Assembly (NCBI RefSeq): GCF_017301635.1
Contig: NZ_CP071091.1
Coordinates: 6,894,001 to 6,958,000, forward strand
Origin: Myxococcus landrumus
Lineage (GTDB): Bacteria > Myxococcota > Myxococcia > Myxococcales > Myxococcaceae
Length of the DNA: 64,000 nt
Direction of reading: 5' to 3'
The notes under the pieces: model-generated
Told to the model about the DNA's origin: nothing
The model's database searches: none
The model's input: the letters and a program-made list of their open reading frames with translations, nothing else
In this document: positions 14,169-63,758 of the stretch, piece by piece
How the letters are laid out: every line of letters starts with the position of its first letter
How positions within the stretch are numbered: the first letter of the stretch is position 1
Position numbers and translations under genes: made by a program

Positions 14169-15344
14169 ATGAGCGTCGCCTTCTACCTGCTGCTCCTCAT
14201 CGGCCTGCTGGGCGCCTTCGACGTCGTCTACTTCCACCTCTGGCGCGGCCGACTCCAGGAGCGTGCCGAGTGTCAGCGCGAGGTGCTCTGGCACACGGCG
14301 CGGCACCTCATCTACGCGCTCCAGTTCCTCTGGGTGCCGCACGTGCGCTTCCAGGGATGGGCGCTGGCGGTGCTCGCGCTCCTCTACGCCGCCGATGTGC
14401 TGGTGGCCTTCGCGGATGTCTGGGAGGAGCGCGACAGCCGGGCCTCCCAGGGCGGTGTTCCCCGAGGTGAGTACTTCATGCACGTGGTGCTCAGCGTGCT
14501 GGTGGGGCTCTACCTCATGGCCACGTTCCAGGCCGTGTGGGTGGACAGGCTGCTGCCCACGGGCGTGCGCATCGAGCCTCCCGCCGTGCCCGTCGCCTTG
14601 CGCCTGCTGATGACAACCCTGGGGGTGACGGCGCTCGTCACCTTCTGGAACGACCTGGCGCGGTGGCGGGCCTTCCGACTCAACCCTCGGCCGACTCCAA
14701 CGCGGCAACACCCGCTCCAACGGATTGTCGTGGAGGTGCTCATCCCCGCGCCCGTGGAGACTGTCTGGGAACGCACCCAGGACCCCGAGCTGCACACGGC
14801 CTGGGACATCCGCTTCACGTCCATCCGCGCCTTGCCGGAGCAGGATGCGCGAGGCTTCCACCTGCTGGACTACCGGACGCACCTGGGCTTCGGGCTCGAG
14901 GTCATCGGGTGGGGCCGCTACCTGGCGAGCAACCTCCACCAGCGCTCCATCTTCGAGTTCGGTGCCGACGACTGGCGCAGCCTCATCCTGCGAGGCCGCG
15001 GCCTGTGGCTCTATGAGCGCCGGCCCGAGGGGACGTTCTTCAAGACGGTCTTCGACTACGAGACGCGCCACGGAGTGCTGGGGGAGATGGTCGACGCGGT
15101 GCTGTTCCGCCCTCTCCTGCGACTGGGCACCGAGTGGGGCTTCGAGACACTTCGGCGGTGGTGCGCGGGGGATGCGCTCGCGACGAAGCAGCGCCGCTCG
15201 CGGTGGCGCTTTGGCGCGTTCTTCGTGGCGCGGTGTCTGGGCAAGCCTCCCGCTCCGGGCGCGGCGCGAAGCTGGCTGGGACGAGGAGCTGCCATCGAGG
15301 GACAAGCGCGTCCCTGTGGAGAACTTGTGGAGGTCTCGTCATGA
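14169..15344 (+). CDS. Integral membrane protein with SRPBCC-type lipid-binding domain
   Basis: A 391-residue protein. Four hydrophobic segments fill the first 165 residues (FYLLLLIGLLGAFDVVYF, WALAVLALLYAADVLVAF, VVLSVLVGLYLMATF, ALRLLMTTLGVTALV). A soluble domain from about 180 (IVVEVLIPAPVETVWERTQD to RGLWLYERRPEGTFF) has the layout of a START/SRPBCC hydrophobic-ligand fold. Its stop overlaps the next start by four bases (ATGA), so the pair is translationally coupled. A joint role in handling a lipid or quinone-like ligand is inference. Confidence 0.7.
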   Translation: MSVAFYLLLLIGLLGAFDVVYFHLWRGRLQERAECQREVLWHTARHLIYALQFLWVPHVRFQGWALAVLALLYAADVLVAFADVWEERDSRASQGGVPRGEYFMHVVLSVLVGLYLMATFQAVWVDRLLPTGVRIEPPAVPVALRLLMTTLGVTALVTFWNDLARWRAFRLNPRPTPTRQHPLQRIVVEVLIPAPVETVWERTQDPELHTAWDIRFTSIRALPEQDARGFHLLDYRTHLGFGLEVIGWGRYLASNLHQRSIFEFGADDWRSLILRGRGLWLYERRPEGTFFKTVFDYETRHGVLGEMVDAVLFRPLLRLGTEWGFETLRRWCAGDALATKQRRSRWRFGAFFVARCLGKPPAPGAARSWLGRGAAIEGQARPCGELVEVSS

Positions 15345-21661: not shown

Positions 21662-22473
21662 GGCAATCGCTCCGAGCGGTCCGCGACCGGCAAGGCCAGT
21701 GACTCCGGCCGCGTCAGCACCACACCCAGCACCACGCCCGCCGCGGCCAGTCCGACTCCGCCCACCACATAGGGCCAGAGCCCTCGGCGCGGTGCCTCCT
21801 CCACGGACGAGGCCACCGGCGGCAGCGCCCCCTCCCGCGCCGAGGCCACCGCCGCGGGCAGCTCGCTCATGGCCTCCAGCCGCAGCGGAGCGCGCGCCGT
21901 GCCCTGCTCGAACAGGATGACGCCACCGGCGTCGCGCGCCACCGCGTAGGCCTCCACGGCCCGCTCCGGCGGGGCCTTCATCGACACGGGCCCTGGCGGA
22001 GGGCGCACCACGGCGGAGAAGCCCGCCGCGCCCGGCTCACGCACCGCCACCATCACCTCCGTGGCCACGTTCCGCGGCTGCTCCAGCAGCGCCACCACCC
22101 GCCCATCCGGCATCCGCGTCACCGTGAGTGTGGCCCGCTGCCCCATGAGGGCCGTCTTCGCCGCCTGGAAGGGCACCTGCACCTTGGGTCCCAGGGAGCT
22201 CTTCACCTCGGTGCCGGGCTCCAGGACGAGCAGCGCCTCGAAAGCCGCCTGGGCCTCCTGACGCTGTCCCAGGACCGCGTGGCATATCGCCAGCCCCCGC
22301 CATGCCCGCGAGCGCTCCTCGCGGGTCCCAGGGGCCTTCAGGGCCGCCTGGAAGGCCGTGGCCGCCTCGTCGAACGCCAGCGCATCGAAGAGCTGCTCGG
22401 CTCGCCTCAGCGGGGGCTCCGCGCCCCAGGCCTGGGTGGCGAACAGCCAGAGGAGGAGGGTGAGTGCTCGCAC
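21658..22473 (-). CDS. TPR-containing exported protein with C-terminal membrane anchor
   Basis: A protein of about 271 residues. GTG 22473 is taken as start because it gives a compact signal peptide (VRALTLLLWLFATQAWGA); an in-frame GTG at 22509 adds 12 residues, and neither has a good ribosome site. TPR-like helices lie at about residues 22-95 (AEQLFDALAFDEAATAFQAA, AWRGLAICHAVLGQRQEAQA). A beta-rich middle part follows. One membrane helix lies near the end (VVGGVGLAAAGVVLGVVL). It leads a two-gene operon with the Cys-rich lipoprotein. Confidence 0.65.
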   Translation of the reverse strand: MRALTLLLWLFATQAWGAEPPLRRAEQLFDALAFDEAATAFQAALKAPGTREERSRAWRGLAICHAVLGQRQEAQAAFEALLVLEPGTEVKSSLGPKVQVPFQAAKTALMGQRATLTVTRMPDGRVVALLEQPRNVATEVMVAVREPGAAGFSAVVRPPPGPVSMKAPPERAVEAYAVARDAGGVILFEQGTARAPLRLEAMSELPAAVASAREGALPPVASSVEEAPRRGLWPYVVGGVGLAAAGVVLGVVLTRPESLALPVADRSERLP

Positions 22474-22835
22474 GGCCCAGGACTCTACAACCGTGTTGCA
22501 CCCGTCCACAGGCTCTGTCCCCAGCGGCCTGCTGCTTCTTCAAAAGCTTAATGGAGGTATTGATCAAATGGTGGAAGCGGTAGAGGGCGCGGACTTGGGG
22601 ACAAGTCAGCAAGCTCGCGAGATGACTCACGAATTCGCTCAATGCTACATGTGGGTAAACTGGCGGTTTCCCCCGGCTTCCCACAGGCGCTGATCCACGC
22701 CACCGTTTCTCCACAGCCGCCCCCCAGCTATCCACAGGCCATCCACAGGTCTCCAGTGGATGAGGGGGCGACCTGGCGTGACGGCGCATTCACACCCCAC
22801 GTCCACGCCCTACAAGCCTGTTATCCTCCGCCGCG
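22474..22835. other. Candidate chromosomal replication origin (DnaA-box cluster plus AT-rich stretch)
   Basis: The gap lies between divergent genes. At 22536-22569, 24 of 34 bases are A or T, striking here and suited to strand opening. From 22650 to 22829 seven 9-mers match TTATCCACA or its complement at 7 or 8 of 9 bases: 22650-22658, 22691-22699, 22707-22715, 22728-22736, 22739-22747, 22755-22763 and 22821-22829. The pair at 22728 and 22739 is phased at exactly 11 bases and the one at 22707 is 21 bases away. If base use were uniform, about half such a match would be expected by chance in this span. Promoters for both flanking genes must also lie here. Confidence 0.5.
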
Positions 22836-24548
22836 GTGCTGCTCCGGTTGCGGGGCGCTGGCGAGGAAGGTGCACCCATCGATTTCTATCGCGGCGAGCG
22901 CATCGGGAAGTACGAGGTCGTCACGCAGTTGTCCGTGGGTGGCATGGCCGAGCTGTTCCTCGGCTTCACTTCTGGTCCGGGTGGTTTTCGCAAGTACGTG
23001 GTCGTCAAGCGCATCCTTCCGGATGTCCGCGACAACGCGCAGTTCGAGCGGATGTTCTTGGATGAGGCCCGCATCACCGCGGCCTTCAACCACCCCAACA
23101 TCGCGCAGGTCTTCGACCTGGGGCAGGAGGACGACGGGCTCTACCTGGCCATGGAGTTCATCGCCGGGCAGAACCTGAACCAGCTCACCGGCGCGTGCCT
23201 GCGTCGCAAGCAGCAGGTGCCGCTGGGCTTCACCCTGTCGGTGGTGCGCGACGTCTGCATGGCGCTGCACTACGCGCACACCTTCACCGCGCCCTCGGGC
23301 GAGCCCAGCCCCGTCATCCACCGCGACGTCGCGCAGAAGAACGTCATGGTGACGTACGACGGCGTGGTGAAGCTGCTCGACTTCGGCATCGCCAAGGCGA
23401 AGGGCAGCTTGGAGCGCACGCACGCGGGCACGGTGAAGGGCACCACCGGCTACATGTCTCCGGAGCAGGTGCGCGGCGAGAAGCTGGATGGCCGCAGCGA
23501 CCTGTTCTCCGTGGGCGTGATGATGCACGAGATGCTCACGGGCGCGCGCCTGTTCGCGGGGAGCACCGAGCGCGACGAGATGATGAAGATTCTCGAGGCG
23601 CCCATCCCCTGGCCCTCCCACGTCGCGCCCCACGTGCCGGAGCAGGTGGGCCGGGTGGTGATGCAGGCGCTGGAGCGCAGCCGCGAGAAGCGCTTCGCCA
23701 ATGGCCGGGACATGGCGCGCGCCATCGAGGCGGCGGCGAGCTCGCTGATTCAGGACGCGGACCATCGCGCCTCGATGATGCGCGAGCTCTTCGCGGAGCG
23801 GATGGCGGCCACGCGCGCGCTCCTGGAGAGCGCGGAGGGCACGGCGAGCACCCACATGGTGGACTCCGCCAAGCGCGCCCTCCGGGGAGATGACGGGCCG
23901 TACCTGCCCGTGCGCGAGGACACCGCCACGCCCAAGAGCGGGAACGAGCCGGTGCCGGGCAAGAAGCCCTCGCGCCGGGTGGCGACGGTGAAGAAGTCGC
24001 AGCAGGCTCCGCCACCGGCGGACGAGGAAGCGCTCACGTCCGCGCAGCGCACGCGCTCCAACGTGCTGTGGGGAGTGGTGCTGCTCGGCATCCTCGGAGG
24101 CGGAGGCTATGGCGCCCTGCGCTTGAGCAGCGCGCTGGACTCGACGGTGGAGCCCATCCCGGAGGTGCAGCCCTACGACTCCCGGCTGGCCGTCTTCCCG
24201 GAGCCCGGAGACGGCGGCACGGTGGTGGCGAAGAAGCCGCCCGAGCCCGTCAAGGCAGTGCCTTCGCGCAAGGAGCCGGTGGATGACGAGCCGAAGACGG
24301 AGCGGACCGTCGCCGTGCGCCCCGGCCGCGCCACGGGGAAGCTGTCGCTCAACGTGAAGGGGCAGTCGGCGCCCATCTATCTGGGGAAGCAGAAGCTGGG
24401 CGTGATGCCGCTGCTCGGCGTGGAGCTGCCGGCGGGCAAGCACACGCTGAGGATTCTCGACCCCCAGGGCGAGAAGCGCTCACTCGTCGTGGTGATTGTC
24501 GCGGGGGAGACGACCCGGTTGAACTTCGAGAGCTGGCAGGACCTGTAG
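22836..24548 (+). CDS. Transmembrane Ser/Thr protein kinase with C-terminal PEGA domain (kinase 2)
   Basis: A 570-residue protein with a GTG start; other starts a few codons on are possible. Kinase motifs: Gly-rich loop SVGGMAELF, ATP lysine K58 (VVVKRIL), catalytic D164 in HRDVAQKN, DFG aspartate D182, and GTTGYMSPEQV in the activation segment. A short basic linker leads to one membrane helix at about 410-430 (VLWGVVLLGILGGGGYGAL). A PEGA domain follows at about 495-570 (LSLNVKGQSAPIYLGKQKLG). It matches kinase 1 closely in the catalytic half but lacks its long Pro-rich linker. Its start is next to the candidate origin. Confidence 0.92.
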   Translation: MLLRLRGAGEEGAPIDFYRGERIGKYEVVTQLSVGGMAELFLGFTSGPGGFRKYVVVKRILPDVRDNAQFERMFLDEARITAAFNHPNIAQVFDLGQEDDGLYLAMEFIAGQNLNQLTGACLRRKQQVPLGFTLSVVRDVCMALHYAHTFTAPSGEPSPVIHRDVAQKNVMVTYDGVVKLLDFGIAKAKGSLERTHAGTVKGTTGYMSPEQVRGEKLDGRSDLFSVGVMMHEMLTGARLFAGSTERDEMMKILEAPIPWPSHVAPHVPEQVGRVVMQALERSREKRFANGRDMARAIEAAASSLIQDADHRASMMRELFAERMAATRALLESAEGTASTHMVDSAKRALRGDDGPYLPVREDTATPKSGNEPVPGKKPSRRVATVKKSQQAPPPADEEALTSAQRTRSNVLWGVVLLGILGGGGYGALRLSSALDSTVEPIPEVQPYDSRLAVFPEPGDGGTVVAKKPPEPVKAVPSRKEPVDDEPKTERTVAVRPGRATGKLSLNVKGQSAPIYLGKQKLGVMPLLGVELPAGKHTLRILDPQGEKRSLVVVIVAGETTRLNFESWQDL

Positions 24549-44817: not shown

Positions 44818-45224
44818 GAGTGTCTCAACCGTGCAAAAGCGGGAGGGGCTGCGAGCGTCCGGCCGTGCTAACAGAGGGGTTGGGGTGGATCAAGCTATCG
44901 ACCCAAAGCCGCGCCGCTGAAGGATCTTTTCAGGGGGTGGATGATCGGCAACGGGCATGCCGATCCGCGACGGTTGTGGAGATCCGATCTCCTCCCCCCA
45001 ATGGATGGGGGCCGCCTGCTCCGGGTTGACTGGCGGTGCGGAATGCAAAACCTCCGCGAGGCGAAAGAGGGCCTCGGAGGTCGCCGCGAGGGGTGAAATG
45101 GGGCGGACGGAGGTGATCCTCCGTTGACTTACCCCGGAAATGGGGTTACGGACCCGGCCCTTTCCCTAGTTCAGGTCGCGCCGAAGCCGTAGGAGGCGCC
45201 ACCCCTCATCAAGGAGTTCAAGCC
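44818..45224. promoter_or_regulatory. dnaA-rpmH divergent control region
   Basis: Within 44884-44992 there are six GATC sites and two perfect inverted repeats: GATCGGCA/TGCCGATC (44943-44950, 44958-44965) and GGAGATC/GATCTCC (44978-44984, 44986-44992). Three 9-mers match the DnaA box at 7 of 9 (44884-44892, 44936-44944, 44975-44983), which would suit DnaA autoregulation. At 45051-45062 and 45071-45080 CCTCCGCGAGGC and GCCTCGGAGG form a stem with a 2-base bulge. No perfect DnaA box is present, so it looks more like a control region than an origin. Confidence 0.5.
45124..45151 (+). promoter_or_regulatory. Possible rpmH operon promoter
   Basis: TTGACT at 45124-45129 fits a -35 box, and TTACGG at 45146-45151 is a weak -10 at 16 bases. 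ACCCC and GGGGT (45131-45135, 45142-45146) form an inverted repeat between them. The transcript would have a leader of about 65 bases. Confidence 0.3.
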
Positions 45225-63665: not shown

Positions 63666-63758
63666 TGTGGGAAACGTGTGGATAACTTTGGGGATAGAAA
63701 TCCCCTGAATGATTCCGGAGGGTTAGGGCCCAGCCGGCGGTGGAGGTGCTGTGGATAA
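63666..63758 (+). other. DnaA-box array between mnmG and rsmG
   Basis: Two perfect boxes TGTGGATAA lie at 63677-63685 and 63750-63758. Two 7-of-9 matches, TGTGGGAAA (63666-63674) and TGGGGATAG (63689-63697), flank the first at 11 and 12 bases, all in one direction. The last perfect box covers the rsmG start codon and codons 2-3. GGGGAT and ATCCCC at 63690-63695 and 63700-63705 form an inverted repeat. It may be an origin part, a DnaA-titration site or a DnaA-controlled operator. Confidence 0.6.

Follow-up and report, generated by a model that had tools for sequence, protein, structure and literature searches.

A conserved DnaA-box element at a distance from dnaA as candidate chromosomal replication origin of Myxococcus landrumus

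The gap that separates a TPR-repeat gene (-) from a divergent Ser/Thr kinase gene (+) at positions 22510-22836 of the window is well supported as an oriC-type element, hereafter element A, because it unites a conserved noncoding core and DnaA boxes with an AT-rich stretch, a trio-like repeat in many relatives, positional homology to a site 3′ of dnaA and an in silico oriC call for the orthologous locus in M. hansupus. On balance, we favour the interpretation that element A is the DnaA-dependent chromosomal replication origin of this genome. The window denotes the whole 64,000-nucleotide stretch analysed (G000:C1:6894001-6958000, + strand), and G000 the source genome, whose chromosome is a single contig of 10,367,529 bp; other G-numbers denote relatives and g-numbers genera (g1, g3, g4, g6, g7 and g8). 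From coordinates of A and dnaA that match published ones, we infer that g1 is Myxococcus and that G060 is M. hansupus. An origin in this gap had been put forward in an original prediction; its oriC-type character was upheld by the conserved core, the boxes and the position, whereas replication start at this site has to be weighed against a corrected strand skew that favours a second DnaA-box cluster in the mnmG-rsmG gap, hereafter element B. Homology, position and anatomy point to A as oriC; the skew points to the side of B in g3 and perhaps here. The question matters given that M. xanthus is a model of chromosome segregation, with an ori whose position, in the published passages available, rests on prediction or on tracking of ParB/parS, or is given with no method named.

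Table 1 Features of the window discussed in the text (window numbering).
Feature	Start	End	Strand	Remarks
TPR-repeat gene, flanking	21658	22509	-	PF07719, 27.1 bits (cut-off 27)
AT-rich stretch, likely DNA unwinding element	22536	22569		24/34 AT
Element A, conserved noncoding core, proposed oriC	22560	22750	+	191-193 bp in 50/50 aligned sequences
DnaA-trio-like array, TGG AAG CGG TAG	22572	22583	+	central A in only 2/4 triplets here
GC-rich 12-bp spacer, trio-like array to first DnaA box	22584	22595		published spacer peak 10-13 bp
DnaA box TTGTCCCCA	22596	22604	-	2 mismatches; ≤2 in 50/50 aligned
DnaA box TTACCCACA	22650	22658	-	1 mismatch; ≤2 in 50/50 aligned
DnaA-like box TGATCCACG	22691	22699	+	2 mismatches; ≤2 in 27/50 aligned
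DnaA box TTCTCCACA	22707	22715	+	1 mismatch; ≤1 in 48/50, ≤2 in 50/50 aligned
DnaA box CTATCCACA	22728	22736	+	1 mismatch; ≤2 in 47/50 aligned; next box 11 bp on
DnaA box CCATCCACA	22739	22747	+	2 mismatches; ≤2 in 37/50 aligned
Weak DnaA-like 9-mer, outside core	22755	22763	-	≤2 mismatches in 8/50, poorly conserved
Weak DnaA-like 9-mer, outside core	22821	22829	+	≤2 mismatches in 10/50, poorly conserved
Ser/Thr protein kinase gene, flanking (longest ORF)	22836	24548	+	PF00069
dnaA, ORF from TTG	43465	44817	-	PF00308, PF08299, PF11638
mnmG (gidA)	61805	63652	+	PF01134
Element B, mnmG-rsmG gap, rival origin or putative DnaA-binding site	63653	63758		box cluster

Element A contains a dense and rigidly spaced DnaA-box cluster

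Searching with the DnaA box consensus TTATCCACA and allowing up to two mismatches, we identified eight DnaA-like 9-mers in the gap (Table 1), three of which carry one mismatch and none of which is perfect. The first seven span 168 bp, in agreement with the seven originally reported within 180 bp, a length for which uniform base usage predicts 0.46 sites, close to the half site that had been estimated; the phasing claimed for the boxes at 22728 and 22739 is likewise exact, at 11 bp. In 500 Markov-1 shuffles of positions 22516-22835, sites with up to two mismatches averaged 0.54 with a maximum of 3, against the eight observed, and sites with at most one mismatch averaged 0.02 with a maximum of 1, against three. 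Moreover, the gap proved to be the densest DnaA-box cluster within 444 kb around the window, as expected of a bacterial oriC; the runners-up, at four sites per 250 bp each, were the mnmG-rsmG gap and a cluster near -41273 (window numbering). On the ranking over 444 kb and the shuffle counts, we reject a chance cluster of DnaA boxes.

We aligned 50 sequences, comprising 30 loci from a DNA search with the gap and 20 picked from the 86 genomes matched in that search. The core measured 191 bp in 38 of them, 192 bp in 11 and 193 bp in one. Given its location between divergent genes, the gap could simply serve the TPR and kinase genes as a promoter, perhaps under DnaA control, and be devoid of origin function, yet such rigid box spacing over 191-193 bp, together with the placement of the element beside dnaA instead in more divergent genomes, makes this explanation very improbable.

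Several minor box occurrences lie outside the gap. The cluster near -41273 consists of 9-mers with up to two mismatches and is situated 41 kb to the left of the window, and three such 9-mers fall within 250 bp near 44884, adjoining the dnaA start. The phased pair TCCACA-N5-TCCACA (11 bp) occurs twice in the genome, compared with one occurrence of the reversed control pattern; the other copy, at 15315-15331 (-), is inside a predicted ORF 7.4 kb from A and may have arisen by chance, the control pattern also being found once.

An unstable AT-rich stretch and a trio-like array flank the first box

The 34-base stretch at 22536, originally described as 71% AT, indeed has this composition, which is reached by three 34-bp positions across the 64 kb. 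Among non-overlapping 34-bp stretches of the window, it ranks second in instability, and the third is located in the mnmG-rsmG gap. By composition and nearest-neighbour stability, the stretch corresponds to the unwinding element expected of an oriC.

Between this stretch and box 22596 lies a trio-like array (Table 1), which reads TAG TAG AAG CAG in some relatives; among the 50 aligned sequences, the array contains four central-A triplets in 6, three in 33 and two in 11. The repeat, 12 bases left of box 22596, has G at nearly every third base. For the DnaA-trio unwinding system, a published spacer peak of 10-13 bp is given in PMC8287927, and the BUS rule was coded after the same source as a box with up to two mismatches plus (NAN)3+ within 16 bp. 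The rule was satisfied anywhere in the gap in 35 of the 50 aligned sequences and specifically at box 22596 with a spacer of 12 in 24 of the 50, against 0.012 per shuffled zone. It was also satisfied once in the mnmG-rsmG gap of the window and therefore discriminates little. Similar to the BUS of B. subtilis and H. pylori, element A has a box, a 12-bp spacer and, in most aligned relatives, central-A triplets; unlike the BUS, the copy in the window has a central A in only two of four triplets, and no match to the published rule was found in its gap.

The presence, conservation and spacing of the boxes, the unstable stretch and the position in relatives are read directly from the genomes. Building on this anatomy, we propose that DnaA-ATP would occupy the rigidly spaced boxes from 22596 to 22747, that a DnaA filament starting at box 22596 would run left across the 12-bp spacer onto the trio-like strand (22572-22583), and that this filament would melt the AT-rich stretch (22536-22569), where the helicase may load and from which forks may depart both ways in this strain.

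Element A is conserved across the family

In the DNA search with the gap, 86 of the 96 genomes of the family gave matches, although for many of the distant ones the matches listed cover only the start of the kinase gene. R1, a sequence-only model of 191 positions built from 29 of the 50 aligned sequences, located element A at E ≤ 0.01 in 82 of the 96 family genomes at one main place each, with a second, weak match in five of the 82. The element is accordingly conserved and present as a single main copy, as expected of an oriC, and conservation of the gap in related genomes, proposed originally as a check, was borne out, boxes 22596, 22650 and 22707 being kept in all 50 aligned sequences. Outside the family, R1 matched three of 49 genomes from the same order, all weakly (E 8e-4 to 8e-3); one of the three, G130 from another family, was examined for gene position.

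Other identities for the element were considered. A coding sequence is unlikely, since the best reading frame was open in 20 of the 50 cores and no frame was open in all 50. A plasmid origin was rejected after a blastn search with window positions 22400-22960 gave zero matches among 72,556 plasmid records. Among 23 intergenic stretches of at least 100 bp that were tested, four match g3 genomes, namely A and three that score higher; judging by position in the gene order, the latter three probably hold genes overlooked by the crude ORF caller.

Element A probably descends from an origin between dnaA and dnaN

In the source genome, dnaA is located 20.7-22.1 kb from the core of A and the rsmG domain match 41 kb from A, consistent with the distances of about 22 and 41 kb given originally. 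We determined the positions of dnaA and rsmG in 30 genomes, comprising assemblies of one to three contigs that contain a match and further genomes matched weakly; the samples used for dnaN (n = 18) and for perfect boxes (n = 15) were subsets of these 30 or were chosen along similar lines. The ends of Pfam domains, and not stop codons, served to measure the distances to dnaA and dnaN, and a more divergent relative means one with a weaker match to A, not one placed by a tree.

In 27 of the 30 chosen genomes, A and dnaA occupy different strands of one contig, and dnaA has its 3′ end toward A. Less than 3 kb separates A from the end of the dnaA domain in five genomes, all more divergent relatives (0.08 kb in G130, 0.10 in G049, 0.33 in G081, 1.85 in G044 and 2.9 in G045). 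The distance is 20-38 kb, in the same orientation, in eight Myxococcus genomes, 22-26 kb in three g6 genomes, 23 kb in G001, 60 kb in two g7 genomes, 60 and 105 kb in two g4 genomes, 73-97 kb in four g3 genomes, and 95 and 146 kb in two g8 genomes. G091 has a single A match, weak and partial, on the 5′ side of dnaA; G012 and G047 carry a full match on a contig other than that of dnaA; and G047 and G011 have an additional weak partial match adjoining the 5′ side of dnaA. Whichever element proves to be the origin, the family presents an origin at successive degrees of separation from dnaA, with distances between 0.1 kb and 146 kb.

Furthermore, dnaN was found close to A on its far side, on the strand of dnaA, in two of the 18 genomes searched for it (G130 and G081). 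The gap between dnaA and dnaN is the classical place of oriC. The oriC of Bdellovibrio is located there (PMC5124646). The dnaN of the source genome (G000:C1:6627380-6627739) lies 289 kb beyond A, on the same side and strand as in G130 and G081; in G028, dnaN is on the other side of A. The indicator genes dnaA, dnaN and mnmG do not adjoin A in the source genome, and the association is found through descent, in relatives in which A is near dnaA. Because A lies near the 3′ end of dnaA, and between dnaA and dnaN, in divergent relatives, it is probably the ancestral dnaA-dnaN oriC, drawn apart from both genes. The simplest reading of the positions would be an ancestral dnaA-oriC-dnaN order, as in Bdellovibrio, that was later split. 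Gained DNA may have produced the present separations of 20 kb between A and dnaA and 289 kb between A and dnaN; the order and orientation of dnaA, A and dnaN are unchanged in the source genome.

The interval between A and rsmG, and hence B, also varies. It is approximately 5-12 kb in G130, G049 and G044, 41-65 kb in four Myxococcus genomes and 138-184 kb in G003 and G006, and reaches 252 kb, by coordinates, in G036. Hits from the A-rsmG zone of the g3 genomes to the source genome keep the same order and orientation in its own zone in 13 of 14 cases (G003) and 17 of 20 cases (G006); the exceptions are one out-of-order, reversed hit in each and two G006 hits elsewhere. Most genes in these zones, 92 of 106 in G003 and 94 of 114 in G006, have no match in the 444 kb of the source genome, which fits a gain of DNA.

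The source genome contains two further partial matches to the DnaA ATPase domain (G000:C1:4261506-4261805 and 4269398-4269697), 8 kb apart on opposite strands. In the G081 assembly, which has 4% contamination, contigs C32 and C382 hold two dnaA and two dnaN matches, which reflect either mixing of genomes in the bin or duplication of the origin region.

Raw and corrected strand asymmetry favour different elements

The three boxes listed for element B are all on the - strand, one with two mismatches at 63666 and two perfect ones at 63677 and 63750, the last at the presumed start of rsmG; the boxes at 63666 and 63677 are 11 bp apart. The original prediction did not mention the two perfect boxes. 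Perfect boxes number three in the 10.37 Mb (reversed control pattern: four), of which two are in B and none in A. Among 15 complete or nearly complete relatives, a perfect box was present in B in 14 (the exception being G034), compared with three for A, and all 33 aligned B sequences have a perfect box where rsmG presumably starts. Model R2, built from 16 of these 33, detected B in 73 of 96 family genomes. Beyond the window, an array of 38 parS-like 16-mers with up to two mismatches extends over 68506-74304 (window numbering), starting about 5 kb past B and 46 kb past A; the parS counts given for M. xanthus, 22 or 24 by other criteria, are lower. The M. xanthus background of the original prediction also agrees with published data: parA and parB carry tags near the end of the numbering (MXAN_7477 and MXAN_7476), and parS was said to lie tens of kb from oriC, the parAB locus being about 35 kb from it (PMC3899335).

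GC skew of the source chromosome, sampled in 20 stretches of 20 kb, was predominantly negative between about 2.1 and 6.5 Mb and predominantly positive from 7.3 Mb on, with exceptions at 3.1 and 8.6 Mb. Over the surrounding 444 kb, which include 10,000 N bases kept in the GC denominators of the raw skew of G000, the cumulative skew reached a shallow minimum at window position 23322, beside the gap. The raw minimum lay at most 0.65 kb from A in four of seven genomes (G000, G060, G071 and G028); in G063, G006 and G003, it lay to the left of B by 2.9-3.5 kb. Raw skew was rejected as sufficient evidence for A, because it is too shallow and the A-B zone is nearly flat.

We next considered a corrected skew, in which the GC3 skew of each gene was fitted with its direction as a covariate and genes were taken from a crude ORF caller, in seven genomes, namely four of Myxococcus (of which G000 and G071 are closely related), one of g6 and two of g3 (G006 and G003). 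In the A-B zone and the right arm, respectively, it amounted to -0.011 and +0.109 in G000, +0.006 and +0.082 in G060, -0.030 and +0.024 in G063, -0.004 and +0.111 in G071, -0.019 and +0.011 in G028, -0.056 and +0.112 in G006, and -0.067 and +0.248 in G003. The zone (M) was below the right arm (R) in six of the seven (bootstrap P(M≥R) ≤ 0.028), the value for G028 being 0.262. The best-fitting switch lay to the left of B by 1.8 kb in G003, 3.8 kb in G006, 2.1 kb in both G000 and G071, and 1.8 kb in G063; in G028, the best-fitting change had the opposite sign and lay 57.9 kb left of A, and this genome was treated as uninformative. Across six variants, a switch at B was preferred over one at A decisively in the g3 genomes (11.6-23.1 lnL units), moderately in G000 (+3.0 to +6.4) and G071 (1.6-5.9), and by -0.9 to +1.9 in G060, G063 and G028. 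In the GC-skew check proposed for the gap, for which a skew switch elsewhere had been named as refuting, the raw minimum lay beside the gap, but the corrected switch was better placed at mnmG-rsmG. In the g3 pair, even the shared backbone genes of the A-B zone had left-arm skew (-0.154±0.057 and -0.213±0.062, with 17 and 14 genes). The collinear hits described above give no support to a rearrangement of the A-B zone, by inversion or translocation, as the source of this conflict. The corrected skew weighs most heavily against A as the site of initiation over the long term, at least for g3, where forks appear to have long arrived from the B side, as perhaps they did here.

These data bear on whether B is the main origin and A an accessory DnaA-binding site, for titration or DnaA recycling, left from the ancestral oriC. 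We regard this as a credible alternative, albeit one that we doubt. The corrected switch near B (although it hardly distinguishes the two in G063), the left-arm skew of the shared g3 backbone genes, the frequency of perfect boxes in B and the proximity of the parS array all speak for it, as does the E. coli origin, which adjoins mnmG. Nevertheless, B is short (approximately 100 bp), its listed boxes all point in one direction, and it was found by its model in fewer family genomes than A. Moreover, the A-B zone of Myxococcus is intermediate in skew and not left-like (G060, P(M≤L) 0.004), G060 shows no preference for B, G028 provides no usable signal, and the g3 pair, having backbone orthologs in common, does not represent independent cases.

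The intermediate skew of the Myxococcus zone, between those of the two arms, and the conservation of A and B alike are also what would be seen if both fire, or if a changeover was recent, so that the zone between them is copied from either side and its skew cancelled. Bacterial chromosomes usually use one origin, however, and an intermediate value could equally reflect the few genes available (26-45 per Myxococcus genome) or slow equilibration; we consider this scenario quite unlikely. A broader and tentative proposal, rather unlikely in our estimation, is that the compact ancestral origin cluster of Myxococcaceae (oriC-dnaA-...-mnmG-rsmG) was stretched from about 5-12 kb to lengths of up to 252 kb and that its ends became alternative origins, the dnaA-type A and the mnmG/rsmG-side B, with B used in g3 and A or both in Myxococcus, yielding a series in which an origin changes place within one family. 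Under the favoured reading, with A as the origin, ori, parS and dnaA would be physically uncoupled, and strand skew would misplace the origin in one genus; were B the origin, the database origin would be wrong.

Relation of element A to known origins

Element A itself is not new, as it is already the predicted oriC of M. hansupus. The in silico oriC of that species (8,613,829-8,614,077) coincides with A of G060 (8613889-8614076) and, like A, is away from dnaA, by about 31 kb. It was located by BLAST against DoriC (PMC4765838), which holds in silico oriC entries for M. xanthus (ORI92210206) and M. fulvus (ORI94030396). These Myxococcus database origins are predictions, and the records available lacked the box anatomy, the dnaA-dnaN descent and the conflict with corrected skew. 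In the open-access literature searched, we found neither this descent nor this conflict and noticed no measured Myxococcus origin, which does not prove the absence of one.

The closest parallel is the oriC of Bdellovibrio bacteriovorus, which is experimentally supported, occupies the dnaA-dnaN gap and has the DnaA box NN(A/T)TCCACA (PMC5124646). Like A, it combines eight putative boxes of this type within some 250 bp of intergenic DNA, an unwinding region at one end (predicted for A) and a location 3′ of dnaA. In contrast, the B. bacteriovorus oriC, which is bound and unwound by DnaA, still lies between dnaA and dnaN, whereas A is 20 kb and 289 kb away from the two genes. A further comparison is with E. 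coli datA, a site of DnaA titration and ATP hydrolysis and thus a non-origin DnaA-box cluster, which could be a model for whichever of A and B is not the origin. datA comprises two consensus boxes and an IHF site, whereas A has an AT-rich, unwinding-like stretch and lies beside dnaA in relatives.
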